Origin: Planctomyces sp.
GTDB taxonomy: Bacteria > Planctomycetota > Planctomycetia > Planctomycetales > Planctomycetaceae
Assembly: GCA_005791255.1 (NCBI GenBank)
Contig: SXXK01000489.1
Coordinates: 1-40,725, forward strand
Length of the DNA stretch: 40,725 bases
Direction: 5' to 3'
Shown here piece by piece: positions 1-16,141 of this stretch. Under the pieces are notes generated by a model. That model worked only from the letters and a program-made list of their open reading frames with translations. It ran no database searches and was not told the DNA's origin. Every line of letters begins with the position of its first letter. Positions within the stretch are counted from its first letter, which is position 1. Made by a program: the position numbers and the translations under genes.

Positions 1-3000
1 CAGCGACACTATCGGGTATTTCAACAATACAGGTGAACGGTGAGACGCGACTGAAGACAAGGAATTCCGTTTCGGCAGCTGGTGATTGCCCAGGCCTTGC
101 TGATACAACGGTTGCTGAGATGGCCACGAGGCTGTTACCGGGACCGGAATCAGTTTCTGTCGGCACAACGGGAATTGGCAGTTGGATGTTCATGGGACTG
201 ATGAACTGACCTGCCGGCAGGCGTTTAGCGTATTCCGATTCACGAGCGCCGGAGGCGGTCATCTGCAGTCGACCGACATCGAGTGTCCAGTCGGGCATTC
301 GTGATTCGGGAGTTGGCCGAGCCGGCGACTTTTCGGCAAGGAAAAGTTCGGACCACGTGATGCGTTCTGAGATTGCAGGCCATGGGATGCTGGCATTGGA
401 ACTGTCGGTGGCTGATTTTCGTTCGGGGAGAGGCAGGCTCCAGATCACAGTGAAGTCGGATTGTCCGAAGAGTGATCGGATGGCCGTGCCATCGACAAAG
501 AATCGCTGACCATCGCGCTGGAGTGCATACTTTTCGCGGTTGGAGAGTACTGCTGGTTCGCTGACAAATTCAGTGTTGTCAGGGAAGTTCATTTCCAGAG
601 GCCCGAGAGCGACGGACCACTGTGTGAGTCGCACGGCGAACTGGAGTCGATCGGCAAGCCACCATGCGGCTACTGCGCCCTGTGGATCCACGGGATTCAG
701 TCGGGTGAGTCTGATGGGGCGAGTTTCGCCGACGACTGTGAGTCTGAGTGGTGAGCCTCGCTGCAGTACGTCTCCGGGTTTGAGTGGGGGATCGGAAACG
801 GCGTCACCGGTATCAGCGAAGACGAGTCCGGTACCGGACTGGTCATTGAGGACCAGCGAGGATTCAAGAATCTGGGATTTTTCAAGAGTTGGGCTGGGTA
901 TGCGCAGATCAGCATCATCTGGAAGTATTTCCAGGGTTCCCTGCAGGGTAATGGCGTGCAGGCCGGTTGTGCCTTCGCGCAGCAGGATGATGACCTGGTT
1001 TCCGCGACGGTGCCATGAGGCGAGTCGATTTGCTTCACCGGCTGTGACTTCGACGTTCTGTACGATGACTTTTTCGGGAATTGTGATGCGGTGTCGAAAG
1101 ACGGCCAGGGCGGAAGTTTCGACGTCCATGCGGCAGGTCCAGTTCATGTTCTGTTCGGTGAAAGTGCACTCCTGCGAAATCCGGACTTCATTGGTTGTGA
1201 TGCGGTCGGGGGCAGTGAGTTGCAGGCTGAGGGAATTCTGTGAGATCTGGAAGATCAGATCGGACCTTCTCAGCCATGGGCCCCAGCGTGGTGAAACGTC
1301 TGTGAAGTTGAGCGGAGTGGCCAGCGTTCTGTCGGGAGTGACGGGTGCAAAGATGGGGTTTGCCCGCAGGGCGAGAATTCCGCCGAGTGTCGGCGTACAG
1401 TCGGCGAACTGATTCAGCTGATGCACTGGAATCAACTGCTGCTGTAGTGGCAGGGGCCGAGTTGATCTGAGTTGCAGGTGCAGAATGAAGTCCGCCGGAA
1501 CAACTCCGGGAAGAGCAATGACGGCGGATTGATTGTCAGTCGACCAGAGCAGTTCAGGGTTCTGGAATCCGGCAGCAGCGGCAGCCGAGAGGAGTTTGAA
1601 TCCGTCGGGTATGCGGTAGCGTATTTCTGTGCTGAGTGGGTTCCATTGTTCAAAGCGGCAGTAGCAGCTGAGATTTTGCAGTCCGGAGGTGTTTTCGGCG
1701 ACAGTCATGACTTCAACTCGGGCGGGATTTGCGCGGCTGCGATCGAGTTCTGTCTGGAGCAGTCGCACGTCGACAGAGTCTCCGCCAGCCAGTCCGTTGA
1801 ACGGGACAGATCCGCTGGCGGGATTCCACTGGATGAAACCGTCAGTGGACTGCAGTCGGGCGATTGAAAACAGTCCTTCAGCGGCGATGATTTCGATTTC
1901 TGACAGCGGGCTGGGTGGAGCGGGTATGCGGAATTGCAGCCCTGACGGCTGACGGAGCGTGTGAGGACGAAGTCGGCAGACAACGAAGTGTTCTGAGAAT
2001 GCTGCGACTTCGTCGGCGGCTACTGCGGTGCGATTCTGGTCGGTGTCAGCGATTGGAAAATCGGGAACAGTTTTGGAGGCGGGGATGGGAATGGCGAGTT
2101 GATCGGGAGGATTCGGTTCAGGAAAGACCTGTTGTCCGTTGACTTCACAGGAAACCAGCTGAGTTCCCTGGGTGGGCAGGTTGAGAGCGCCAGCCTGATC
2201 GCTGCTTGGCACGGAGACCACCAGTTCAAGTCTGAGTTCGACGGAGTCCGGTGTGCTGGCGGTGACGATGGCTTTAAGGGAGCGTACGACGGCGTCGGAT
2301 TTTTTAGGAATCAGCAGTTCGAGTTCTCGGAGTTGCCGGAGATAACTGCGGCGAACGAAGGCGATTCCCGCAGTTTCGGGAGTGGGTGGAGGTGTGAGGA
2401 TGTCGGGAGTCCGGGCATTTTCGGTCAGGGGGCTGCGGGGGGGCTGAGCGGCTTCCTGGGCTATCGCGGAGTGGGTTGTGAGGGTCACGAGGAGTGTCAG
2501 GCTGCGGAGTATTGCGGTGTTTCGGAAGCTGCGCAGGTATCTGAGGAAACTGCGAGTTGACAGCATCAGCAGCAACGCTCCGGCACTTCCCCAGAACGCT
2601 CCCTGCAGTGCGGCATGGACGACGGGAGTCAATTCAAACAGACCAGCGGGTGAAAGCATTATGATTGGTAGAGCTGCAGCCTGAGGATTTCTCAGCAGCA
2701 GTGTTGAGCAGGAGAGGCAGATGCCGAAGAAGACAACGCCCATCCCGGCGGCAACGATCCGGCGTCGCTGTTTCTGAGTGACTTCCAGCGACATGGGATA
2801 GTCTTTTGTATCCGGCTGCACGAACCATGCGCGGGTCCAGCCACGGGTTCCTGAAAGTTGCCAGTACAACTGGAATTGAGTTGTTTCTGCGTGCGGTCCG
2901 GACGTGAATCCAGCGGAGTTTGCTGCGTGGGCGGGCTCAGGCGAGTTCCGAAAAAAGAGTTCGTCAAGCTGCGGAGCATCGGAGGAATCAGCAACACGGA

Positions 3001-5716
3001 ATTCAGAGGGAGGCAGTTCTGGTTCAAGTTCGGGAGCGATCAGCAGGTGGTGTACGAATTGAACGCCCTTGCCATTGATGGATTGCAATCTTGATAAATT
3101 CAGTCGACTGCGAATGTTTTCGAGCGGAGTGAATTCGGGGCTCCATGTCAAAACGACGCGACAGCGATCGGTTGTGGCGGGCAGCGGGATCCGGAGTCCA
3201 GTGGGACCCCGTTCGGCAGCGATCCGTCTCCCTTCGACAAGGACATAGGGTTGTGTCTGGGCGGTATCGATCAGCAGCTGATTTGCAGTTACGGGGCCGG
3301 CGACATCGATGACTGCGAGCATTCGGTGTTCGACCTGTCCCTTGCGTTCCCGAATCAAGTGATAGCAGGCGGCATCAGCTGACTGTATCGGGTCTCTGGC
3401 TTCGGGACTGGATCGTTGAATAACGATGGTTTGGGGTTCGATGGGCAGGATCCACGATGCCAGTTGAGCATTTTCCGGGACAGCCGGTGATTCCTGCAGT
3501 CCTGTGACATTGAGGATCTTCAGATCGGAGCGAGGCAGGGTGATTATGGCGGTGGTGGTTTCTGCTTCGGGGAGAAAGGGAACTGCCGCAGAAAATTGTC
3601 CGGTGACTGCGCGTCGGATACTTCCATTGATAAGCACGGTGGCATCGTTGCGGAACTGTGGCAGTGGCAGGATGGCGTCTCTCCAGGAATTTTCAGAGCC
3701 TGCTACGGCGCGCCATGTCGGGGTAATGGTCTGTCCATTGACAGTCCAGCTGATTTCTTCAGCGAATTCAGCGTCCAGTCGGAGAATGATGCTGGACTGC
3801 AATTGTGAGGGAGAGCATTCGACCTGCAGATTTTCGACAACAACACCGTCACCGTCAGTCCGTAACTGATGTGTCACACGGCAACGGGCAGGCTGGGTGG
3901 CCGGTTGCATTTGCGGGAGCGAGTCACCGCCGAAGTAGCAGAGAGTATCTTCCGAGATTTCGGTGGCGGGAAACCACGGAGCGGCGGCAAGAAACGTCTG
4001 ATTTGCCATCGACTGCAGGCCGCTGGCCCAGCGGCTTGAAATGCGGGATCCCGTCAGCGTCGCGGGTGAATACAGAAGCCATGCTGCTGTGCGTTCGACG
4101 TCCGGAGCGACAGCGAGTGGAGGCTGCAGGGTGGCCGGGTCCGCCTTTTCGGACTGCTGCATTTGCAGGTCAATGACCCGTGATGTATCGGGTTCGAGGG
4201 TTTCGGGAAGGTGTACGGTGAGAACGGAGCTTTCGGAGCCATCAGAAGCCTCGCCACCTGAAGCGGATCGTTGTTCGAAATAAAGTGCGCGACCGTTTGA
4301 TGTATAGCGTGCGGCTACGATCTGCCAGCCGGCATTGATGGGCCATTTCAGTTCAATGACTGCAGCTTCACGGCACTGCACATTGACGAAGCAGCGAACG
4401 GCAGCCAGTTGCCCGGTGGGTTGCAGAAGTGTTGCGACAGCATCGGAGAGAACTGCGGCGGTCGTGGAAGTGCGGACGGTGGCCGAGGCATCGCTGCTGT
4501 ACTGCGTTAACTGATAGGTGCGTGACTGATCCGGTCCTGGAACAACGTCTCGTTCCTGCATTCCGGTGAGTGCCCAGTCATCGATATTGACGGTGGATGG
4601 CAGAGAGACACTGACGATGCCCGGCGGCGTTAAGAGTGTTCCACGAGTTTCCTGTGCGCTTTGCCATTCCTGCATCGCCAGGGCCGGGAGATCCCATTTG
4701 TCGGCATCCGGGATCACAGATGCGGTGGAGATCGTCAGTGATCCGGCGGAACCGGCATCAGAGAGTCTGATGAGCAGACTTTGTGAGTTTTCGGAAGTGT
4801 GAGTTTCCCAGCGCACTGAGCGGTTTTCATCAGTGCGAACGGCAGTCACGCGGGCGCCGGGGCTAAGTCGTGCCGACAACGCTGCGAGGTCGCGCGAGTT
4901 CTGTGGGAGCCCGATGGTCCATCGAGAGGACATGATGTCGCCGTTCAGGACGTGATTTGCCGAGAAACTTGTCAGTGGCAGTGGTTCGGATGGCTGCAGG
5001 TGGGATGTGTTTCGACAGGAAAATGCGAGCCTGGCGGGTTCAGACGCCAGCAGTTCCCAGAGCAATCCGGATTCAGCGGGCTGGGGCCCAAGGACGAGGC
5101 AGCCCAGTCCGGTAACTTCTGTTTCCGGAGGAGTTTTGAGCTGCAGCGAAGTGGCGCTGCTGGCGGGCAGCTCCAGTCGAAATATTGTGGATTCGCCTGA
5201 GACGAGTCCATCAGCGGTCCACGTGCCGCTGAGATCTCCGGTCAGACCGGGTTTCAGGACGAACAGACGTCTTTCAGGATCCGCACCCAGTGGGACGGTT
5301 CCCTGTGGATCACGGAGTTGCAGTTGCCGCAGGCTTGTGCGTCCGAGCAGGAGACCGTTTCCGGAAGCTGCCTCTGCGGATCTGCTGAGTCCGAACTGCA
5401 GAGTACCGGAGACCAGAGAGCGTCCTCTGAATTCTGCTTCATAGCGGGCCATACGGATTGTTGGGGCAGACGGTTCCTTCGAGATTGTCAGAAGTTTCTG
5501 CAGGGCACTGAGATCTTTTTGGGAGAGTGGTACGTATTCACCCGCAGCGATCATTTCAGGGAGTTGCTCTGGTGTGGTGGGTGCAGTACTGACACTGGGA
5601 GTTGTCGGGGATTCTGCGGTGCTGACGGAAGCAGGGGATTGGGGAACCTGCGGATCAGTCTGTCCGGTGGCAGCCTGGAGCAACAACGAGAAAAGTATCA
5701 GGAAGTGTCCGGACAT
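1..5716 (-). CDS. Giant planctomycete-type envelope/secreted protein, partial (C-terminus beyond left window edge); two signal-peptide + beta-rich ectodomain modules in one frame
   Basis: The - strand frame starting at ATG 5716-5714 (MSGHFLILFSLLLQAATGQTDPQVPQSP...) showed no stop in the stretches I read by hand (about 5716-4480, 2830-2440 and 1-360). No ORF in the supplied track uses this frame, as expected for an ORF with no stop inside the window. N-terminal signal peptide, Pro/Ser/Thr-rich linker, long beta-rich ectodomain, hydrophobic segments at about 2560-2790. Confidence 0.85.
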   Translation of the reverse strand, partial: MSGHFLILFSLLLQAATGQTDPQVPQSPASVSTAESPTTPSVSTAPTTPEQLPEMIAAGEYVPLSQKDLSALQKLLTISKEPSAPTIRMARYEAEFRGRSLVSGTLQFGLSRSAEAASGNGLLLGRTSLRQLQLRDPQGTVPLGADPERRLFVLKPGLTGDLSGTWTADGLVSGESTIFRLELPASSATSLQLKTPPETEVTGLGCLVLGPQPAESGLLWELLASEPARLAFSCRNTSHLQPSEPLPLTSFSANHVLNGDIMSSRWTIGLPQNSRDLAALSARLSPGARVTAVRTDENRSVRWETHTSENSQSLLIRLSDAGSAGSLTISTASVIPDADKWDLPALAMQEWQSAQETRGTLLTPPGIVSVSLPSTVNIDDWALTGMQERDVVPGPDQSRTYQLTQYSSDASATVRTSTTAAVLSDAVATLLQPTGQLAAVRCFVNVQCREAAVIELKWPINAGWQIVAARYTSNGRALYFEQRSASGGEASDGSESSVLTVHLPETLEPDTSRVIDLQMQQSEKADPATLQPPLAVAPDVERTAAWLLYSPATLTGSRISSRWASGLQSMANQTFLAAAPWFPATEISEDTLCYFGGDSLPQMQPATQPARCRVTHQLRTDGDGVVVENLQVECSPSQLQSSIILRLDAEFAEEISWTVNGQTITPTWRAVAGSENSWRDAILPLPQFRNDATVLINGSIRRAVTGQFSAAVPFLPEAETTTAIITLPRSDLKILNVTGLQESPAVPENAQLASWILPIEPQTIVIQRSSPEARDPIQSADAACYHLIRERKGQVEHRMLAVIDVAGPVTANQLLIDTAQTQPYVLVEGRRIAAERGPTGLRIPLPATTDRCRVVLTWSPEFTPLENIRSRLNLSRLQSINGKGVQFVHHLLIAPELEPELPPSEFRVADSSDAPQLDELFFRNSPEPAHAANSAGFTSGPHAETTQFQLYWQLSGTRGWTRAWFVQPDTKDYPMSLEVTQKQRRRIVAAGMGVVFFGICLSCSTLLLRNPQAAALPIIMLSPAGLFELTPVVHAALQGAFWGSAGALLLMLSTRSFLRYLRSFRNTAILRSLTLLVTLTTHSAIAQEAAQPPRSPLTENARTPDILTPPPTPETAGIAFVRRSYLRQLRELELLIPKKSDAVVRSLKAIVTASTPDSVELRLELVVSVPSSDQAGALNLPTQGTQLVSCEVNGQQVFPEPNPPDQLAIPIPASKTVPDFPIADTDQNRTAVAADEVAAFSEHFVVCRLRPHTLRQPSGLQFRIPAPPSPLSEIEIIAAEGLFSIARLQSTDGFIQWNPASGSVPFNGLAGGDSVDVRLLQTELDRSRANPARVEVMTVAENTSGLQNLSCYCRFEQWNPLSTEIRYRIPDGFKLLSAAAAAGFQNPELLWSTDNQSAVIALPGVVPADFILHLQLRSTRPLPLQQQLIPVHQLNQFADCTPTLGGILALRANPIFAPVTPDRTLATPLNFTDVSPRWGPWLRRSDLIFQISQNSLSLQLTAPDRITTNEVRISQECTFTEQNMNWTCRMDVETSALAVFRHRITIPEKVIVQNVEVTAGEANRLASWHRRGNQVIILLREGTTGLHAITLQGTLEILPDDADLRIPSPTLEKSQILESSLVLNDQSGTGLVFADTGDAVSDPPLKPGDVLQRGSPLRLTVVGETRPIRLTRLNPVDPQGAVAAWWLADRLQFAVRLTQWSVALGPLEMNFPDNTEFVSEPAVLSNREKYALQRDGQRFFVDGTAIRSLFGQSDFTVIWSLPLPERKSATDSSNASIPWPAISERITWSELFLAEKSPARPTPESRMPDWTLDVGRLQMTASGARESEYAKRLPAGQFISPMNIQLPIPVVPTETDSGPGNSLVAISATVVSARPGQSPAAETEFLVFSRVSPFTCIVEIPDSVA
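2440..2790 (-). other. Internal TM cluster followed by signal-peptide-like segment inside the giant ORF (module junction)
   Basis: Hand translation of the - strand: ...QRRRIVAAGMGVVFFGICLSCSTLLLRNPQAAALPIIMLSPAGLFELTPVVHAALQGAFWGSAGALLLMLSTRSFLRYLRSFRNTAILRSLTLLVTLTTHSAIAQEAAQPP... Three hydrophobic stretches, an Arg-rich patch, then a hydrophobic core ending in a signal-peptidase-I-like AIA-Q site. Confidence 0.75.
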
Positions 5717-5717
5717 T

Positions 5718-8700
5718 TCAGCGTGCCGAGCCTGAGGAGAGATCCGGTTGCAGAGCACTGCTGCCCGATGCTGCACCGTGGTTATCTCGAACGTCTACGG
5801 CAGCCAGGTCGGGAAAACCGAAGATGGAGGGCAGTTCGGCGGTGTTGGCAATCGAGTTGCCGGAGGTGCGTCGATCTGCCAGATATCTGTGCAGCTGAGC
5901 GATACACAATCCTGCCAGTATGCCGGCAACGGCAGCTGGCAGAAAGACGGCTGACCAGACAGGCTGAGCAATCCATGTGGTGAGTGCCAGGGCAGGCGTG
6001 AGGACGAGGGGTACGAGTGGCGAGAGGCGTCTGAACAGGGACATGGACAGAAAGATCAGAGCACAGCCGGGCGCGGCAGCGAGGACCTGCAGGGCAAGTG
6101 GAACTTCGATGACTCTGAGTTCCCGGGCTGCCGCGGTACCGAGGCAAAGTCCGCTGGCATTTTGCTGTCGGATTACCGACGGAGTGCAGGTTTCAACGGC
6201 CGTCCGGACTGCAGGCGAGAAGGTGGAGATTACGGAGGCGAGGTCGGCGGCATGCTGTGCCGCGACGGGCTGCCTCCACGGCAGCGCCGAGGTCAGCCCG
6301 TGATCAAACGAATCAAAGTCGCTGCCGAGCGGAATACTGCGGGCGCCGGGGGATGACAGCAGGCTCCAGACGACCGGCAAGGCAGCTTCTTCAGCGGAAA
6401 AACGGGGTCTCAGCAGGCTGAGCCGGCGGTAAAACGCCGAGCCTGATGGAGTAATCTGGCGACATCTGATCAGCAGCACTGTCGGGCCTTGCAACTGTTC
6501 GAGCGCCGTGGGCAGGATCTGCCAGCGTACAGCAGTGCCGTCTGTCGTTGGCACTGCCTGCAGTGCTGTTCTGGCAACGTCGGCTGTGGTCAGCATCTGA
6601 CTGCCCAGCTGCACAGATTCGAGCTGTAATTCATTTTCGAGGCTGAAATAGATGTTCCGGGGAACGTCCTCCCACGCCGCGATTATTGATGTAAGAGCCT
6701 GTCCGGGCAGCAATTCGGAGCCTGCGAGGATCAGCAGGGGGCTTTCTGCGCCTCCAAAGCCGGCTGTTTCGGCGCGGCGGACAGGCAGTGTCAGGTTCTG
6801 TGCCGTCAGGGCGGGAATGGCTGACGAACCTCCACCCGTCTGCCCGCTTCGCCATTGCCACGCAGCATCAGACTCTTCGGAAAATACGGGCTCCCAGCGG
6901 ACGGGGTCTGCGACCTGCAGTCCGCTCCATGATGCTGTTTGTGCGCGAATGCTGCGAATCAGGCAGTCACCGGGAATCACCAGCGGCACTTCCTGAATTG
7001 CGTTTTGGCTGGCTGAGCCCGATTGCTGAGCACTCCAGATCCAGCCCACATCCAGCAACAGTTCTCCTCGAGCTGACTGAGGAAGTCGAAATGTCCACTT
7101 TCCAGAGGGCCCTATCACCGGTCGCAGTGGTTCACGAATGCCTGCAGCACGCACTATCGGCTGGACTCGATCCGGCACAAACAACGCTACTTCAGTCAGG
7201 TCTTTATGATCGATCAGAAAGCGAATCTGCTGTCGGAGTTCAAGTCCGTTGGCGACCGGCGCCAATCTCGTGGAAACATCTGCTTCGACGACCGGGTCCT
7301 GTTTTCGCAGTGAGACCAGCAGTGGTTGCTCCGGATCTCGATAAAGCAGGCTGCGCGGGGGATTGACCGGACCTGCAGTCTCCGGGCCAGCACCAGCTGA
7401 CGAGATCGCGTTCAGAGCATCGGCAGATGCGGGCGCGGTGATTTCAATTCGATTCTGGTCGGACTGCAGCAGTCGAATGGTAACGGGTTGACCGGTGCGT
7501 TCGCGTACCTGAGGGCAGAGCAGGCTGAGTACAGCATCTGCTGTGGCTTCCTGTTTTGCGAGACAGCGGAGTTCAGCACTGAATTCCCCTGTTTGTCGTT
7601 CGAGAAATGTCAGTGTGATCCAGTCCGGCTGACCTTCAACATCACGCAGAACTGCTCCCGAGGTGCCCGGCTGTCGCTGAAGTACAATGTCGCCGGGCAG
7701 CAGGCCCCAGATTTCACGCATTGCCTGCGGCCACTGCAGCGGCAATTCCAGGAGTGAACCGCGGAGAACATTCACGTTCCAGCGCATCAGCAGACTGACG
7801 GAGTTGCCTTCCGGCTTCAATTCCAGTTCCTGTGTGAAGATGTACTGTGCCTCCGTCTCCTTCACCAGAAGCTGAATCCTGGATTCCGGAGATCGAAGCC
7901 GAAATGCGGTCGCTGCGACCCCTCCGGCCACGTCGGAGGCCACGCGGCGTCGCTGAGCGCCCTCCACCTTCGACTGCTCCACAACAAGTCCTGACGGGAT
8001 CAGAATATCGAGGTCACCTGTCTGGACATTGGCCTCCTGAACAACCGGAAGCGAAACAGCAACCGCGAGTGGAAAAGCCTGTTCCCTCATTTCCAGTTCG
8101 AAACCGAGAGTCAGCTGGCCTTCAACCGCTGAAGTGAGGCGTATCAGAGTCCGCTGCGGATTTTCATTCGGCAGCGATTCAAAATTCTTCAGTACCGAGG
8201 CATTGGCTGAGTTTCGAGCACTGACTTCCTGAAGCTCGAAACCCGGTGGATAGACCACACTGACCTCGGAAAGAGATCCACCAGTGATCTGCAGCGACTG
8301 TGTGCCATTGAGACTGACAGGAATAGTCGTCAGGTCAAGTTTGATGCGGGACTGGGACTGCACTACCGGGGGTACGGCGATCTGAGGTGTGATTTCGGAC
8401 CATGTCAAAAAGATCGGACCTGAGAGCCCCCAGAGTTCAACAGCCCGCACACCCTGTTCATCACGCTGCGTTTCCGACACCGCATCGGCTGGCAGACGCT
8501 GCAGGTCGACAGGGACAGCAAAATCGAGGCGTGCGTGGGAGGCTGTGGATTGCGGGAGAGTCAGATTCAACTGCCAGCCCCCCCCGGTTACAGGTCGTGC
8601 GCGGCTGATCATCTGCAGAGTGAGTGTGTGCAGGCCCCGACCGCGGAGATGCCAGGTCCTCAGATTCTGCTCACCAGCCGACAGGACGGCTTCGGCGCCT

Positions 8701-9152
8701 GCGGCCTGTGATTCATGGCGAAACTCGGTCAGAAACACTTCGCCGAATGAAACGGGAACGGCAATCCACTCGCCGTCGGTACGAATCTGTACCTGCAGTC
8801 GGAATGTCAGTCGCACAACATCGCGTTCAACGGCTCCTGTGATCTCGGTGTGGGCAATTGTGAATGCCGGTACTGCACGCTGTTGCAACCCGCGCTGCAG
8901 CAGGAGATCAGCAATGTCAGGCCCCAGCAGATTGCGGAGTGGTACGAGGTCCCCCGATTTCATGCGGATCAATATATCAGATGTTCCGAGCGTTTCAGCG
9001 GCGGGGTCCTGCGTTGCGGGTGGCGTCGCTGCGGGCGGGGCGAGATCGGACTGTGCAATCACAGGTTGCGCAAAGAGACACAGACTGGCAAGCAAAGGAC
9101 CGGCAAGCAACAGTCGTGCGGCGCTGCCGAAGTTCGGGAGTCGCCAATGCAT
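5718..9152 (-). CDS. Large signal-peptide-bearing, beta-rich planctomycete envelope protein with C-terminal transmembrane segments
   Basis: ORF 5718..9176. The more likely start is the internal ATG at 9152 (MHWRLPNFGSAARLLLAGPLLASLCLFAQPVIAQ, a signal peptide). C-terminus has TM-like stretches (LALQVLAAAPGCALIFLSMSLF; LVPLVLTPALALTTWIAQPVW; SAVFLPAAVAGILAGLCIAQL). The TGA stop is 1 nt before the ATG of the giant ORF. Confidence 0.85.
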   Translation of the reverse strand: MHWRLPNFGSAARLLLAGPLLASLCLFAQPVIAQSDLAPPAATPPATQDPAAETLGTSDILIRMKSGDLVPLRNLLGPDIADLLLQRGLQQRAVPAFTIAHTEITGAVERDVVRLTFRLQVQIRTDGEWIAVPVSFGEVFLTEFRHESQAAGAEAVLSAGEQNLRTWHLRGRGLHTLTLQMISRARPVTGGGWQLNLTLPQSTASHARLDFAVPVDLQRLPADAVSETQRDEQGVRAVELWGLSGPIFLTWSEITPQIAVPPVVQSQSRIKLDLTTIPVSLNGTQSLQITGGSLSEVSVVYPPGFELQEVSARNSANASVLKNFESLPNENPQRTLIRLTSAVEGQLTLGFELEMREQAFPLAVAVSLPVVQEANVQTGDLDILIPSGLVVEQSKVEGAQRRRVASDVAGGVAATAFRLRSPESRIQLLVKETEAQYIFTQELELKPEGNSVSLLMRWNVNVLRGSLLELPLQWPQAMREIWGLLPGDIVLQRQPGTSGAVLRDVEGQPDWITLTFLERQTGEFSAELRCLAKQEATADAVLSLLCPQVRERTGQPVTIRLLQSDQNRIEITAPASADALNAISSAGAGPETAGPVNPPRSLLYRDPEQPLLVSLRKQDPVVEADVSTRLAPVANGLELRQQIRFLIDHKDLTEVALFVPDRVQPIVRAAGIREPLRPVIGPSGKWTFRLPQSARGELLLDVGWIWSAQQSGSASQNAIQEVPLVIPGDCLIRSIRAQTASWSGLQVADPVRWEPVFSEESDAAWQWRSGQTGGGSSAIPALTAQNLTLPVRRAETAGFGGAESPLLILAGSELLPGQALTSIIAAWEDVPRNIYFSLENELQLESVQLGSQMLTTADVARTALQAVPTTDGTAVRWQILPTALEQLQGPTVLLIRCRQITPSGSAFYRRLSLLRPRFSAEEAALPVVWSLLSSPGARSIPLGSDFDSFDHGLTSALPWRQPVAAQHAADLASVISTFSPAVRTAVETCTPSVIRQQNASGLCLGTAAARELRVIEVPLALQVLAAAPGCALIFLSMSLFRRLSPLVPLVLTPALALTTWIAQPVWSAVFLPAAVAGILAGLCIAQLHRYLADRRTSGNSIANTAELPSIFGFPDLAAVDVRDNHGAASGSSALQPDLSSGSAR

Positions 9153-9195
9153 AGACCCTAACCCTTCCCGCGCCACTGAAGGTTGCTGAACTGAC

Positions 9196-9222
9196 TGACA
9201 CAGAGGCGGCAGACCTGTGTCA
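9196..9222. promoter_or_regulatory. Perfect 8-bp inverted repeat upstream of the 1152-aa envelope gene
   Basis: TGACACAG(9196-9203)-11 nt-CTGTGTCA(9215-9222). Confidence 0.45.
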
Positions 9223-9374
9223 ACCGCCGGAGCGACTGAACCGGAATCCGCCGAGCAGAGTCCGCCAGCCTGCAGTCAGTATAGTTTACGCAAACAGCCC
9301 GGGCCGGAGAAGTTGCCAAAGTTTACCGAGGTCCTGCAATGTCACGTTTTGTTGAGCGGGCGGATCGCATGTGT

Positions 9375-10157
9375 TCATTTGAACAGATTTGTGAGTTGTT
9401 GCTGGAGTTCGGGTGAGCTGGCAGCGAGCAGGCTGGGTGCGAAGAGATCGATTTTTTCGCCTTTAAGGTTGGAGAGGACTCCACCGGACTCGGTGACCAG
9501 CAGGGCTCCGGCGGCGATATCCCAGACATTCAGGCTGCTGGACCAGAATGCGTCGATGCGGCCGGCTGCGAGGTTAGCGAGATTGAGAGCAGCGGACCCG
9601 GTGCGCTGTACGGTCTGCAACGTGCTGAGAGCGGTGAGGAATCTGCGGACCGCCGGGTTTTCCGGATTTGCAGCTATGGGGAGGCTGGCCATCCCGAACG
9701 CTCGATCGATACGCGTTTCGCCGCTGGTTTGCAGTGGCGAACCGTTGAGTGCGGCACCGCCGTTTCGGATAGCGGTGAACAGGTCATGTCTGGTTGGATC
9801 CAGAATGACGCCGACTTCGATCTCACCGTGGTACATCAGGGCGATGGAGACGGCGTAATAAGGGAATCCGTGAACATAGTTTGAGGTTCCGTCAAGGGGA
9901 TCGATAATCCAGACGGCTTCGTGGCTGGAGCCGCGTTCGTTGAGATTTTCTTCACCGAGGAACGAGTGATCAGGGAAGTGCTGCCGGAGTCGGCTGACGA
10001 TTGCGGTCTGGGAGGCTTCATCTGCGTCAGTGACGAGGTTTGCTCGACTTTTTTCGCGGACGGAGAAGCGGCCCTGCCAGTCCAGCAGGACCTGTCCGGC
10101 GACTTGAGCGGCTTCGACGGCAGCGTTCAGCCAGGCTTGTTGCGACATAAATTGCAC
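9375..10157 (-). CDS. Inositol monophosphatase family protein
   Basis: IMPase motifs: GEENL, WIIDPLDGTSNYVHGFPYYAVSIAL and WDIAAGALLVTESGG. Confidence 0.95.
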   Translation of the reverse strand: MQFMSQQAWLNAAVEAAQVAGQVLLDWQGRFSVREKSRANLVTDADEASQTAIVSRLRQHFPDHSFLGEENLNERGSSHEAVWIIDPLDGTSNYVHGFPYYAVSIALMYHGEIEVGVILDPTRHDLFTAIRNGGAALNGSPLQTSGETRIDRAFGMASLPIAANPENPAVRRFLTALSTLQTVQRTGSAALNLANLAAGRIDAFWSSSLNVWDIAAGALLVTESGGVLSNLKGEKIDLFAPSLLAASSPELQQQLTNLFK

Positions 10158-10398
10158 CTTCCGGAGAGCAGAATTCGGGGTTCTGGCAGGAAAACGTTGA
10201 TCTGGCCGTGGTCTGGAAGTGTAGTGGAATGGCGGACTGTGGGAACGTCAGCCGTGGCAGGCGAGGTGATCGAGGTGTCAAATCCGATACGATCGTTGCA
10301 GACTGTATTTGCTGCCACCGATGCCTCTCTTCCGCAGTGCGTCCAGCTGGAATGGGGTTGCCGAACTGTCGTTTTCCCCCGATTGTGAGAGGTGTTTG

Positions 10399-10457
10399 TG
10401 CAGGAAAACCTGCAGAAAACATGACCCGGAGGGGGGCAATCGGCCGAAACTGCCGAT
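10399..10457 (+). promoter_or_regulatory. Candidate structured 5' leader of the TadE-CpaB-TadG-like cassette (two short hairpins)
   Basis: TGCAGG-AAAA-CCTGCA (10399-10414) and ATCGGC-CGAAACT-GCCGAT (10439-10457), both perfect 6-bp stems, 58-116 nt upstream of ATG 10515. Confidence 0.35.
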
Positions 10458-10514
10458 GGAGAAGTGTTTCCATTACCTCGCCGATCTGAGAAAGCTGAAG
10501 CCTGTGGGATTGTC

Positions 10515-10967
10515 ATGAAGTCTGCACGCGTTGTGCCCGGTCGTCGCGGTGCCGTTCTGTCCATGGAACTGGTGCTGGTGCTGCCGATTTTTTTGCTGCT
10601 GATTTTCGGCATCGCTCAGTTTTCGATGCTGATGGCGGCGCACGCGCGGATCACATCGGCAGCGCAGTCCGGGGTGAGGATGATGAGTCTCAGTGGGTCC
10701 GGTGTTCCTGAAGTGCAGGAGCGGGTAGCGAACCTGCTGGGGGCGACGCTGGCGGTCAACTGCGAGATTGACGTTCAGCCGGCGGAGTATGCCGGGCAGA
10801 TCGGCAGTGTTTTCATCAAAGTGCCTATGAGCAATGCCAGTCCGGATCTGCTGTGGATGACGGGATTCAGTCTGACGGATCGCTATCTGGAATCAAGTGC
10901 TGCAATGGTGATGGAGCGGGTAGCAGTCGTGGAAATGACGGCTGAGGACAGCGGTTCGGCCCTTTGA
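10515..10967 (+). CDS. TadE-like pilus assembly protein
   Basis: N-terminus RRGAVLSMELVLVLPIFLLLIFGIAQFSMLMAAHARITSAAQSGVR is typical of TadE/TadF. ATG at 10515 preferred over the ORF start at 10464. Confidence 0.85.
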   Translation: MKSARVVPGRRGAVLSMELVLVLPIFLLLIFGIAQFSMLMAAHARITSAAQSGVRMMSLSGSGVPEVQERVANLLGATLAVNCEIDVQPAEYAGQIGSVFIKVPMSNASPDLLWMTGFSLTDRYLESSAAMVMERVAVVEMTAEDSGSAL

Positions 10968-11016
10968 GTTATTCGCACGGCATCGAGATGCATTTTGAGT
11001 ACTGAAGGAGACACCT

Positions 11017-12039
11017 GTGAAGATCACGCCCTGGATGCTGACGATTGCGACATTTTCGATTGTCTGTACTCTGGCCGCGGGTTACATGCTGAAACTGGCA
11101 TTTGGTCGGGCTCCGGTAACCGAGTCGCCTCGCACGACACGCACCATTCCCATGCTGCAGTCGGACGTGGAGCCGGGTACGGTCATTACCCGAGCACACA
11201 TTGGGATGGGTCCGTGGGATCGCAGCAAGACTCTTGAGCCGGACACCATGCTGAATTCGGACACGATCATCAACCGGATCTCGAAGGAGAAGATCACTGC
11301 GGCGACTCCGCTGCGAGGTTCGATGTTTTATGCTCCGGGAGATTTTCCGGCGCTGGACATTGCCGAGGGGAAGCGAGCGGTGGTGGTGCGGGTCAGTCCG
11401 ACGACGGCGGCACTGAATGCGAAGCTGAAGCCGGGGCAGTACGTGGATGTGCAGTTGACAGTTGATGAAGCGGACGTCTCAGCAGCAGCTCGACGTCGTG
11501 CGGGTTTGGATCCCCGCAGTGACACTCTTAGCGGTGATGCCATGACGGCGACACTGTTTAAAGGTGTGAAGGTGGTGCAGGTCAATCGGTCTTCCCCCGG
11601 AACTCCGATACCGACCGCGGCTGGCAGCCAGAGCGTGACACTCGAACTGGATGAGGAGCAGTCGCGGATTGCTCTGCTGGCGCAGAAGAAGGGAGAGATT
11701 GATCTGATTTACAGCAACAACGGTCCGGGGAAGGGCGGAATCAGTATTGAAGCCAGCGAGGACGACCGAATTTTCTTCATGGAGATTCTGGGACTGAAGT
11801 CCGTGGCACGTGAAGAGAACAAGCCATACCGAACCGAGCAGTATCGCGGGCCCAGTTTCAACAGTCAGTATTTTGAGGACGGGCAGCGCATGGGCAACCC
11901 AACCGGACCGCGTACGGCCCCGGCACCGCCGAACAGTTCCTCCATTCGCGGCCCCTCGACTACGCAGCTGAACGACAATGATGTCACTCTGGATGACCTC
12001 GCCGGCAACCTGCCGGCGGACAGTGGAGTTCCTCGCTGA
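11017..12039 (+). CDS. cpaB: Flp pilus assembly protein CpaB/RcpC (SAF domain)
   Basis: N-terminal TM; SAF-like VEPGTVITRAHIGMGPWD; GKRAVVVRVSPTTAALNAKLKPGQYVDVQLTVD; AAGSQSVTLELDEEQSRIALLAQKKGEIDLIY. AAGGAG upstream of GTG start. Confidence 0.87.
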   Translation: MKITPWMLTIATFSIVCTLAAGYMLKLAFGRAPVTESPRTTRTIPMLQSDVEPGTVITRAHIGMGPWDRSKTLEPDTMLNSDTIINRISKEKITAATPLRGSMFYAPGDFPALDIAEGKRAVVVRVSPTTAALNAKLKPGQYVDVQLTVDEADVSAAARRRAGLDPRSDTLSGDAMTATLFKGVKVVQVNRSSPGTPIPTAAGSQSVTLELDEEQSRIALLAQKKGEIDLIYSNNGPGKGGISIEASEDDRIFFMEILGLKSVAREENKPYRTEQYRGPSFNSQYFEDGQRMGNPTGPRTAPAPPNSSSIRGPSTTQLNDNDVTLDDLAGNLPADSGVPR

Positions 12040-12077
12040 ATTTCCGGAGGTCAGATACTCGCAACAGGAGAGTGCTC

Positions 12078-13253
12078 ATGCGCAGGGCTGAGTACAGAAC
12101 GAGTCTGCTGTGTGATTGCAGCTCGACCGGTGTGCGGCTCTGTGTGGCTCGTTCCGGCGTGCTGTCTGTGTGGTCCGTGGCGGCTCTCAGTTTTGTCGGT
12201 TTGCTGTCCTTTCTGGTGCTGGACCTGTGGCTGCTTTCGGGACTGATGCAGCAGGCTCGCAACTGCTGTGAATCTGCGGCTGTGGCTGCTGCTCACAAGT
12301 GGCTGGCTGACGATCTGCTCCGCAGTGGTTATCAGCAGTTTCAGGTTGATGGTCGGCAGGCGACATGCACTGACGCAGCGCTCGATCAGGCTGGCTGGTA
12401 TTCTGAACGATCGCAGCTTCCGCCGCTGAGCGAAGCGGACGTGGAGTACGTCTGGCGTGAAAACTCAGCAGATGCCGCTTCCTTTCCAGTTCCGTCAGCA
12501 GTTCGCGTGCGACATCCGATGGCTGATGGTCGCATTTATCGTCGTCCTGGCAGTTTGCTGAATGTTTCGGAATGTGCGGCAGCGGCGACAGCCAGTCTGG
12601 AAAACCGCCCGGTGGCATTCCGTCCGGCGCCCGGCCAGACTCTTCCGATGCTGCCGTTTTCGATCTGCGATGATCCTGGTGCAGCCGGGGCGGGTTGGTG
12701 GACTTCGCAGATCGAGCAGATGGGGGGGGCGGACGAGGTCTCATGGAATTCTGAACAGCGGATTTTCGAGCAGGGTCCGGACGGTATTCCGGAAATTTCG
12801 GTTGAGCTGACGACTGAGCCGTCGGGACGTCCGGATGAACTGTCTCTGCTGGATTTCAGCGGTGGTGACCAAACTGCGGCCAGACCACTGAAGCGTCAGA
12901 TCGAGGAAGGTCTGAGGTTTGCGGATCTGGAGGTTCTGGGGTGGAAGGAGTTGGCCCTGCCGGCAGTGTTTCCAGCTCTGCAGCCGCAGGCGGAGCAGTT
13001 GGCGGAACTTCAGGTGGAACTGGCGAGCGGGCGAATGGAGCCGAGTCTGCTGATGCTGTGCAGTCGTCTGGCGAGTGGGGGAGTTTCGCTGCAGCGAGCT
13101 GTGGCGGTGCGGGTGGTTGATGCTGTGCAGTCGGACGTGCAAACGGTCAGGCTGCGATTTCAGCCTTGCGTGATGGTGACCTCCATGGCTGTCACCGGAA
13201 GTCCGGAAACTTCAGAGAATCGCTACGTCTACAGTGTGCGTCTGGCGAACTGA
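12078..13253 (+). CDS. TadG-like/pilus-assembly-associated protein
   Basis: Single N-terminal TM (SVWSVAALSFVGLLSFLVLDLWLLSGLMQQARNCCESAAVAAAHKW) with a TadG-like post-TM pattern; follows cpaB with a CAGGAG ribosome-binding site. ATG 12078 (ORF track start 12072 is GTG). Confidence 0.65.
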   Translation: MRRAEYRTSLLCDCSSTGVRLCVARSGVLSVWSVAALSFVGLLSFLVLDLWLLSGLMQQARNCCESAAVAAAHKWLADDLLRSGYQQFQVDGRQATCTDAALDQAGWYSERSQLPPLSEADVEYVWRENSADAASFPVPSAVRVRHPMADGRIYRRPGSLLNVSECAAAATASLENRPVAFRPAPGQTLPMLPFSICDDPGAAGAGWWTSQIEQMGGADEVSWNSEQRIFEQGPDGIPEISVELTTEPSGRPDELSLLDFSGGDQTAARPLKRQIEEGLRFADLEVLGWKELALPAVFPALQPQAEQLAELQVELASGRMEPSLLMLCSRLASGGVSLQRAVAVRVVDAVQSDVQTVRLRFQPCVMVTSMAVTGSPETSENRYVYSVRLAN

Positions 13254-13297
13254 GGGCGACTGTTTGCGGATTGCGGTCGTATTGCCGGATTGGCGTA

Positions 13298-13319
13298 GCC
13301 GGTAAGGCTCGGGACCGGC
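13298..13319 (+). terminator. Candidate stem-loop between the TadG-like gene and the redoxin gene
   Basis: GCCGGT(13298-13303)-10 nt-ACCGGC(13314-13319), a perfect 6-bp inverted repeat, 45 nt after the stop at 13253. No strong downstream T-tract. Confidence 0.3.
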
Positions 13320-13415
13320 CGGCAGAATTTTGTCGGTTCCGCTTGCAGTTGATTCAGTTTCCCTGGAGCATTACGAGGCTGGTTTTTTCGTTAATCCGGG
13401 TGGGAGACTGGTCTG

Positions 13416-14870
13416 ATGGCTGGGCGAAACTTGATCGTGTCACTGGCTGTGGTGTGCCTGTGGATGCTGCTTCCGGTGAGCGGCATGGCGCAGACAAATT
13501 CATCGCCCGGGGCTGCTGCTGGCCCGTCGGAGGTGAGCAAGCTGCTGCAGCAGCTGCAGAAGGAAAGCCCGGAAAATGCTGCGAAGCTGCTCGATGAGGC
13601 GATTGCGGCTGACCCAGCCAATTTTCGTCTGCATTCGTATCGTTCGCTTGTGGCCAGCCGTTATGCAGCAGCGGGCAATCTGCCGGAGGCACTGAAGCAG
13701 GCAGAACAGGGTTGCGATGCGCTGTTGCAGAAAATTGAGGAGCCGCTGGCGGCCGGTATGACCGCTTCGTCGGTTCAGATGTACTACGGTTTTGCCCGTC
13801 GAGCGGGCAAAGCGGACCCCGGTCGTGTGGAGGCTGCACTGGCAGGTCTGCGGAAAGCGGGTACGCAGTCTGCAGATGGTCAGTATCTTCAGGCGATTGC
13901 TCAGTTGACGGTGCTGCGGAGCGAGTTGCTGGCGAGCGGCGGTCGTGTTGAGGATGCTGTGGCGGCGATCCGCGACGAGTTGCAGTTGTTGCGGGCGGGA
14001 ATTGAGCAGCCGTCGAGTTCTGAGAAGGCTGTATTGGCATCCGCGAGGCTTCTGCAGGCGTTGCAGTTGCCTTTTGGGGGTCAGTCGGACGCAGAGCAGG
14101 AGGCGGCGAAGCAGCAGTTGCAGGAACTGTTCACTGCTGCTTTGACGCGACTGCCGGAATCCTCAGCTTTGCTGTCAGAGTATCTGCGCGTGCAGGGTTC
14201 TGAGGCGTCACGTCTTTCCGGCACGGATCCGGAAGCTGCGACACGGATTCTGGAGGCTGCAAGGGCTCTGGCGGCTGAATCAGAATTGAAGGAGCAACCG
14301 GCAGTAAAGGCTGCTGTGGCGATGTATGCACCGCTGGACCGTCGCATTGAATCGGCGCGACTGCAGTTGCAGATGATCGGCAAGCCGGCACCGGCACTGG
14401 ACATTGCCGCTACGGCTCATGGAACGCCCGTCACGGCAGACTCACTGAAGGGCAAGGTAGTGCTGCTGGATTTCTGGGCGATCTGGTGCGGTCCGTGTAT
14501 TGCGACATTTCCCCATCTGAACAGTATGTACGACGAGTTCCACAGTCGCGGTTTGGAGATTGTGGGTGTGACTCGCCAGTATGGTTATGAGTGGAATGCG
14601 GAGACGAAGCGTGCATCTCGTGCCGAGGGGGATGTATCTATGGAAGCGGAACTGGCAATGCTGGAGGAGTTCATGAAGCACCATGAGCTGCGACATCCAA
14701 CGATTGTGACTCCGAAGGAGTCAGCGATGCAGAAACAGTTTGGGGTGACGGGAATTCCGCATGCGGTGCTGATTGACAGGCAGGGCAATGTGCGGATGAT
14801 TAAGGTTGGTTCGGGTGAAGCCAACGCGAAGGCGCTGCATGACATGGTGCAGACGCTGCTGGCCGAGTGA
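13416..14870 (+). CDS. TlpA-like thioredoxin/redoxin-family protein with long N-terminal (TPR-like) region
   Basis: Signal peptide; C-terminal KGKVVLLDFWAIWCGPCIATFPHLNSMYDEF (WCGPC) and GVTGIPHAVLIDRQGNVRMIKVGSG. Confidence 0.92.
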   Translation: MAGRNLIVSLAVVCLWMLLPVSGMAQTNSSPGAAAGPSEVSKLLQQLQKESPENAAKLLDEAIAADPANFRLHSYRSLVASRYAAAGNLPEALKQAEQGCDALLQKIEEPLAAGMTASSVQMYYGFARRAGKADPGRVEAALAGLRKAGTQSADGQYLQAIAQLTVLRSELLASGGRVEDAVAAIRDELQLLRAGIEQPSSSEKAVLASARLLQALQLPFGGQSDAEQEAAKQQLQELFTAALTRLPESSALLSEYLRVQGSEASRLSGTDPEAATRILEAARALAAESELKEQPAVKAAVAMYAPLDRRIESARLQLQMIGKPAPALDIAATAHGTPVTADSLKGKVVLLDFWAIWCGPCIATFPHLNSMYDEFHSRGLEIVGVTRQYGYEWNAETKRASRAEGDVSMEAELAMLEEFMKHHELRHPTIVTPKESAMQKQFGVTGIPHAVLIDRQGNVRMIKVGSGEANAKALHDMVQTLLAE

Positions 14871-14935
14871 GCTTTCCTGGCTGTGCGTCCGGGTTGTCGT
14901 AAGGTTTGTGGTCAGCAGAGGGAACGGCGAGACAG

Positions 14936-16141
14936 ATGACTGGACAGGCGACGCTGCCGCGTGGATTTCGTGCGGCCGGATATACTTGTGGAATCAAGGT
15001 CAGCGGGAAGTCGGATTTGGCGCTTTTCGTGGCGGATGGTCCATCGTCAGCCGCTGGCGTGTTCACGACGAATCGCGTCTGCGGTGCTCCCGTTGTGGTA
15101 TCTCGTCGGCGCGTTCCGTCCGGATCGGCTCGTGCGGTCATCATCAACTCGGGCAATTCGAACGCAGCGACCGGGGATCCTGGAATTGCGGATGCCGAAC
15201 GCATGACGGCAGAACTGGCATTGGCGATTGGCTGTCGTCCGGAAGATGTGCTGGTGTGTTCGACAGGGGTGATTGGTGTGCCGTTGCCGATGCCCCTGCT
15301 GTTGTCCGGCATTCCGCAGGCTGCGGGAAAGCTGGCATCGGATGCTCAGTCGCTGCTGGATGCCGCGACAGCGATGATGACGACCGATACGGTTCCCAAA
15401 CTGACATCTCTGGATTTGACGCTGAGTGGTGGAGGTGTGCGGATTGCGGGTGTGTGCAAGGGGGCAGCCATGATTGCTCCCAACATGGCGACCATGCTGG
15501 GAGTAGTGATGACGGATGCGTTGCTCACGCCTGCTCAATGTACGGAACTGCTGCGAGCGGGTGTGGAGGATACCTTCAACTGCATCAGCGTGGACGGTCA
15601 CATGAGCACCAGTGATACGGTACTGCTGCTGGCCAGCGGGGCCTCGGGTGTGAATCCGGGGGCCGACGATCTGGCGGAGCTGGCTGCGGGGATTCGGCAG
15701 GTTTGTCAGCATTTGGCGACCGGCATCATTCGGGACGCGGAGGGGGCGGATCACTTCATTACGGTGGACGTTGCGGGAATTGTCACCCGTTCGGCTGCTC
15801 GACAGATGGCGAGGGCGATAGCGGACAGTGCGCTCGTGAAGACGGCAATCACGGGCGGGGATCCGAACTGGGGGCGGATTGTCTCTGCGGCGGGTTACAG
15901 TGGGGTCGGATTTGATCCGGCGTATCTTTCATTGCGTATCAACGGGACTGAGGTCTATCGGGCTGGAACGCCGGCAATTTTTGATGCTGCGGTTGTATCG
16001 CGAGGACTGAAGTCCGCTCGTGAGGTTCATCTGGAGCTGACTCTGCATGGCGGTCCGGAATCAGGAAGTTGCAGTGCTCGTTTCTGGACATCGGACCTGA
16101 CAGCTGAATATGTGAGGTTGAATTCCGAGTACACGACCTGA
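14936..16141 (+). CDS. argJ: Glutamate N-acetyltransferase / amino-acid acetyltransferase (ArgJ)
   Basis: GIKVSGKSDLALFVADGPSSAAGVFTTNRVCGAPV; KGAAMIAPNMATMLGVVMTDA (autoprocessing site region); AITGGDPNWGRIVSAAGYSG. Internal ATG 14936 preferred over 14906. Confidence 0.95.
   Translation: MTGQATLPRGFRAAGYTCGIKVSGKSDLALFVADGPSSAAGVFTTNRVCGAPVVVSRRRVPSGSARAVIINSGNSNAATGDPGIADAERMTAELALAIGCRPEDVLVCSTGVIGVPLPMPLLLSGIPQAAGKLASDAQSLLDAATAMMTTDTVPKLTSLDLTLSGGGVRIAGVCKGAAMIAPNMATMLGVVMTDALLTPAQCTELLRAGVEDTFNCISVDGHMSTSDTVLLLASGASGVNPGADDLAELAAGIRQVCQHLATGIIRDAEGADHFITVDVAGIVTRSAARQMARAIADSALVKTAITGGDPNWGRIVSAAGYSGVGFDPAYLSLRINGTEVYRAGTPAIFDAAVVSRGLKSAREVHLELTLHGGPESGSCSARFWTSDLTAEYVRLNSEYTT

Follow-up and report, generated by a model that had tools for sequence, protein, structure and literature searches.

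The window, by which we mean the whole stretch of DNA analysed here, is a contig of 40,725 bases whose position 1 is both the contig edge and the window edge. Its first feature is a giant gene on the minus strand (2..5716), which we call AB. From the ATG at 5716-5714 down to position 2 there is no stop codon over 1905 codons, and the initial annotation of this DNA was right to call the frame open to the window edge. Because position 1 is the edge of the contig, the gene is cut there and does not end there. A family profile search finds AB again at the start of contig G000:C297 of the same genome, where profile positions 1914-2120 are covered. Compared with an ortholog that is 84% identical, about five codons are missing between the two contigs, and the full AB protein has about 2144 amino acids. 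The genome is that of a planctomycete: in a single-protein scan, one relative with a name was an uncultured Planctomycetaceae bacterium, at 84% identity.

AB consists of two modules, A and B, with all of the following features on the minus strand. Module A begins with an N-terminal signal peptide (5663..5716), and the protein reads MSGHFLILFSLLLQAATG↓QTDPQ from its first residue. A linker and a large ectodomain follow (2765..5662, about amino acids 19-984), and then three transmembrane segments (2561..2764), which hydropathy and alternating loop charge place at about amino acids 985-1010 (TM1), 1013-1030 (TM2) and about 1035-1052 (TM3). Next comes a putative internal signal peptide (2459..2557) with a basic n-region (TRSFLRYLRSFRNTAILRS), a short h-region (LTLLVTLTTH) and the c-region SAIA. 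The segment reads LTLLVTLTTHSAIA↓Q1087, and the predicted cut after AIA (A1086↓Q1087) would fall between nucleotides 2459 and 2458. Behind it lies a hypervariable Pro/Ala-rich linker (2372..2458, about amino acids 1087-1115), the predicted new N-terminus of module B, and then the B ectodomain, which continues to the contig edge (2..2371). A C-terminal transmembrane segment of B is present in complete orthologs; in our genome this anchor is on G000:C297. Thus, the elements reported initially from mid-protein (three hydrophobic segments, a basic patch, a signal-peptide-like AIA↓Q and a Pro/Ala-rich linker) are all there, as is the signal-peptide-like N-terminus.

Immediately upstream lies a third gene, U (5718..9176, minus strand), which encodes 1152 amino acids and ends with TGA at 5720-5718. 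The ATG of AB follows one base after this stop codon, an arrangement that suggests translational coupling of U and AB. The U protein has an N-terminal signal peptide (VIA↓Q), a large ectodomain, three C-terminal transmembrane segments and a cytoplasmic tail. U, A and B are paralogous to each other: profile comparison with hhalign yields E-values of 3e-16 for U and A, 2e-10 for U and B, and 1e-5 to 8e-5 for A and B, compared with 0.08 at best for reversed or block-shuffled control profiles. In an outgroup genome from another class (G465), direct sequence comparison gives E-values of 2.5e-74 between B and U and 6.6e-65 between B and A. By this homology, the locus is a tandem triplication, with two of the three copies in one frame.

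The conserved immediate upstream neighbour of U is a gene of the inositol-monophosphatase family (PF00459; 9375..10157, minus strand), and of about 31 loci, 19 have an inositol monophosphatase gene next to U. Beyond it, the stretch 9375-13253 of the window holds an RcpC/CpaB gene (11017-12039) and a Tad-like gene, and a TadG-like protein with Tad_C and VWA domains is encoded near the other contig end (39000-40229). These neighbours, the inositol monophosphatase and the Tad-pilus-type genes, do not reveal a function for AB. A second paralogous operon with the same layout and a longer fused reading frame (about 2690-2860 amino acids) occurs in several members of the family. Examples are G018:C1:1418292, G087:C1:3302128 and locus L111 (G095:C1), the last with a U-like gene at 3049-6573 and an AB-like gene at 6570-14729.

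One explanation offered for the fused frame was a lost stop codon, or a sequencing or assembly error, between two separate genes. The source is a draft metagenome assembly of 542 contigs, and separate A and B genes do exist elsewhere (in G465), both of which would suit such an error. The same fused frame, however, is found in independent genomes at 84, 64, 42 and 36% identity. All 17 other genomes of the genus carry an AB ortholog, about 34-84% identical, and unless a contig end interrupts the gene, the ortholog reads as one open frame of about 2090-2320 amino acids. When 398 genomes of the class were searched with a profile, AB turned up in nearly all members of the family and also in other families, with A and B in one frame wherever frames were inspected, and a second profile has matches in other classes of the phylum. 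Among the short frames that we inspected, those of G005, G332 and G380 run into a contig end and that of G019 is broken inside B; others, of 1502-1687 amino acids, have smaller modules but retain the junction. Since the fused frame persists at identities as low as about 35% within the genus, and well outside the genus too, the error explanation is refuted, and we give it practically no weight. The AB fusion is ancient and general and not an oddity of the source genome.

Elsewhere in the polyprotein gene than at the A/B junction, L023 (G019; 458-6408) and L183 (G776; 6158-14982) also show frame breaks, which are either assembly errors or real.

A clean split between A and B was found in one genome, G465, where U, A and B are three separate reading frames. 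Between A and B, each of the three frames contains stop codons, and hence a single indel error cannot account for the split. The B protein of this genome starts with a classical signal peptide, MNRVIVRVCVLAACLAVVLRSAVRA↓EESS, so that in one genome at least the downstream part is encoded as a separate secreted protein. The initial annotation had named, as evidence against its reading, orthologs that are always single frames with the mid-protein segment inside a folded domain. Neither half of this holds: a split ortholog exists, and the segment lies between the membrane bundle and the hypervariable linker. Either fusion or fission may have been the earlier event; fused forms are by far the commoner. 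In a further genome, G415 (L101), A and B share one frame that is broken by a single TAG near 9780-9838. This codon may be a genuine stop, an artefact of assembly or a nonsense mutation of recent date.

We then compared the junction in 48 sequences from across the class, the window and 47 relatives. The order of elements is constant in all of them: module A, TM1-TM2-TM3, a basic loop, an h-region, a small residue, the linker and module B. Such recurrence without exception is more than chance would give. Sites were scored with a home-made cleavage-site matrix whose only training set was the signal peptides at the N-termini of the upstream U proteins. A score of at least 3.5, our cut-off, is reached after the internal h-region in 41/48 sequences, compared with 6/143 after the ends of the neighbouring TM1-TM3 (Fisher p about 6e-28, an optimistic value, since related sequences are treated as independent). 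With the sites read by eye, 47 of the 48 sequences have A, G or S at position -1, and 36 have Q at position +1. Q1087 is almost invariant within an otherwise hypervariable stretch. Since +1 is so often Q, we considered a genome-wide rule of Q after the cleavage site, but found no support for it in 51 candidate signal peptides that were scanned roughly; a search for Glu_cyclase_2 found none.

It had also been suggested that B could be translated from its own start, an in-frame ATG at 2566-2564 with a GGAG upstream, and would then carry its own signal peptide. Both the ATG and the GGAG are indeed present in the window and in its two closest orthologs (L003, L004). These are the only three of the 48 sequences that combine an ATG with a Shine-Dalgarno-like sequence at the junction, and 30 have no ATG there at all. 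An internal start is therefore not the general mechanism, and we consider it very improbable that B is made in this way.

The main rival to processing is a fusion that stays uncleaved. The internal segment would then be a fourth transmembrane helix, a signal anchor, and A and B would form one giant protein with two ectodomains. In several relatives the segment is hydrophobic enough to span the membrane, the topology permits a fourth helix, and there is a bacterial precedent in the polytopic Streptomyces Rieske protein with its internal (Tat) signal peptide (PMC13186574). In a few sequences the internal site is weak (for example, in G066, G392 and G360), and such segments could be uncleaved anchors. 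Three observations speak against this rival. First, the small cleavage-type residues after the h-region are kept, whereas the sequence of the h-region is not. Second, such residues are mostly missing from TM2, which shares the segment's in-to-out orientation. Third, in one branch a lipobox takes the place of the site. A spacer helix that is never cut needs neither cleavage-type residues nor a lipobox. We regard an uncleaved fusion as unlikely.

The lipobox is found at the internal site in seven relatives (G480, G515, G445, G834, G843, G708 and G825), for example as LAAG↓CQGG, IATG↓CSTT or LAG↓CDPS. The consensus [LVI][ASTVI][GAS]C directly after the h-region is matched, for instance, by LAAG↓C in G708 and LAG↓C in G825; LPG↓C in G480 and LNG↓C in G843 deviate from its strict form. 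Another relative (G593), 41-49% identical to six of the lipobox sequences, has ASA↓A at the same place, a site of the signal peptidase I type. Hence, across the relatives, the h-region is followed by a conserved site for either signal peptidase I or signal peptidase II. An exchange between the two would not be expected of a mere spacer helix. In the lipobox lineages, cleavage by signal peptidase II and lipidation are to be expected. The split genes of G465 and the lipobox branch both point to cleavage at the internal site.

The composition of the junction fits an export signal as well. With a median hydropathy over 19 residues of 1.64, against 1.96 for TM1-TM3, the internal segment is the less hydrophobic. 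Net charges are +2.0 for the TM1-2 loop, -0.2 for the TM2-3 loop, +3.1 between TM3 and the signal, and -2.2 after the site. These alternating charges place the loop before the signal in the cytoplasm and the stretch after it on the outer face. The odd number of transmembrane segments (three), together with the basic loop, likewise predicts that the upstream part ends in the cytoplasm. The internal signal of the window contains no twin-arginine. Signal peptidases of both the LepB and the LspA type are encoded in the genome. Separately, contig G000:C368 (7509-10698; L173) carries two adjoining LepB-like reading frames that are unusually long, at 622 and 636 amino acids.

Our preferred reading, which we hold to be highly probable, is that AB is a polyprotein of ancient origin, cut at its internal signal peptide by signal peptidase I (in some lineages by signal peptidase II) to give two anchored ectodomains. 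The initial suggestion that the fusion is natural and has a mid-protein site for signal peptidase is well supported. Sequence shows the fusion and its conservation, the layout with its charge pattern, the conserved site, the split and lipobox variants and the paralogy of U, A and B; the cut itself, like the use of Sec, we infer. Module A would be exported by means of its N-terminal signal peptide, and its three transmembrane helices would anchor it and return the chain to the cytoplasm. Module B would be exported next, with the basic loop and the short hydrophobic segment serving as a second signal. A cut by signal peptidase I after AIA (A1086↓Q1087) would free the N-terminus of B on the outer face; where the site is a lipobox, as in some related lineages, signal peptidase II would cut instead and the product would be lipidated. 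A would keep its helices, and B would be held by its C-terminal transmembrane segment. The products would be two membrane-anchored ectodomains, made at a presumed ratio of 1:1 and paralogous to U. A, B and U are probably partners in one complex.

Database searches place AB in no described family. The protein has no match in Pfam or NCBIfam, and a PDB search gave no meaningful match. AlphaFold2 with a two-sequence input was uninformative (mean pLDDT 38 for the junction piece and 28 for U). In the part of the literature on planctomycete and bacterial polyproteins with internal signal peptides that we covered, the AB family is not reported.

To our knowledge, there are very few cases of bacterial, non-viral polyproteins that are cut at internal signal peptides. 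One is FbcH of Bradyrhizobium japonicum, which Thony-Meyer et al. reportedly described in about 1991 as the precursor of cytochrome b and cytochrome c1. As proposed here for AB, one bacterial gene encodes a polytopic N-terminal product and a signal sequence at the junction, and processing by signal peptidase gives rise to two members of the same complex. FbcH, however, is an isolated case and gives rise to known enzyme subunits, whereas AB encodes giant paralogous ectodomains, is conserved phylum-wide, and occurs with signal peptidase I, signal peptidase II (lipobox) and split-gene variants. Because AB matches no Pfam or NCBIfam family, such as cytochrome b or c1, it is an analogue only of the FbcH type. 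Viral envelope polyproteins, on which the signal peptidase of the host acts, work in a similar way, with transmembrane segments and behind them an internal signal peptide that sets free the ectodomain after it, but this is a process of the eukaryotic ER, and we claim no homology with AB. The Streptomyces Rieske protein also carries an export signal within a polytopic membrane protein, in its case for the C-terminal domain; it differs from AB in being Tat-dependent, and no released second protein is described (PMC13186574). With no family match found for AB, it does not belong to the Rieske family either.

What appears to be new, going by the literature that we covered, is the protein family itself, the conservation of an internal site across a phylum, and the exchange of a signal peptidase I site for a lipobox at an internal position. 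We lean slightly towards an even broader interpretation, namely that this is a polyprotein strategy of planctomycetes across the phylum. A giant envelope complex would be built from three paralogous membrane proteins, and the internal signal peptides would be true processing sites that have passed from one signal peptidase (I or II) to the other in the course of evolution, with some lineages releasing a lipoprotein from the middle of a polyprotein. Selection has maintained the internal site across the phylum, and the split-gene and lipobox versions are natural controls, which makes the polyprotein idea directly testable in cultured planctomycetes. The locus also exposes a large, conserved and uncatalogued family of envelope proteins, in a phylum whose cell envelope is debated.
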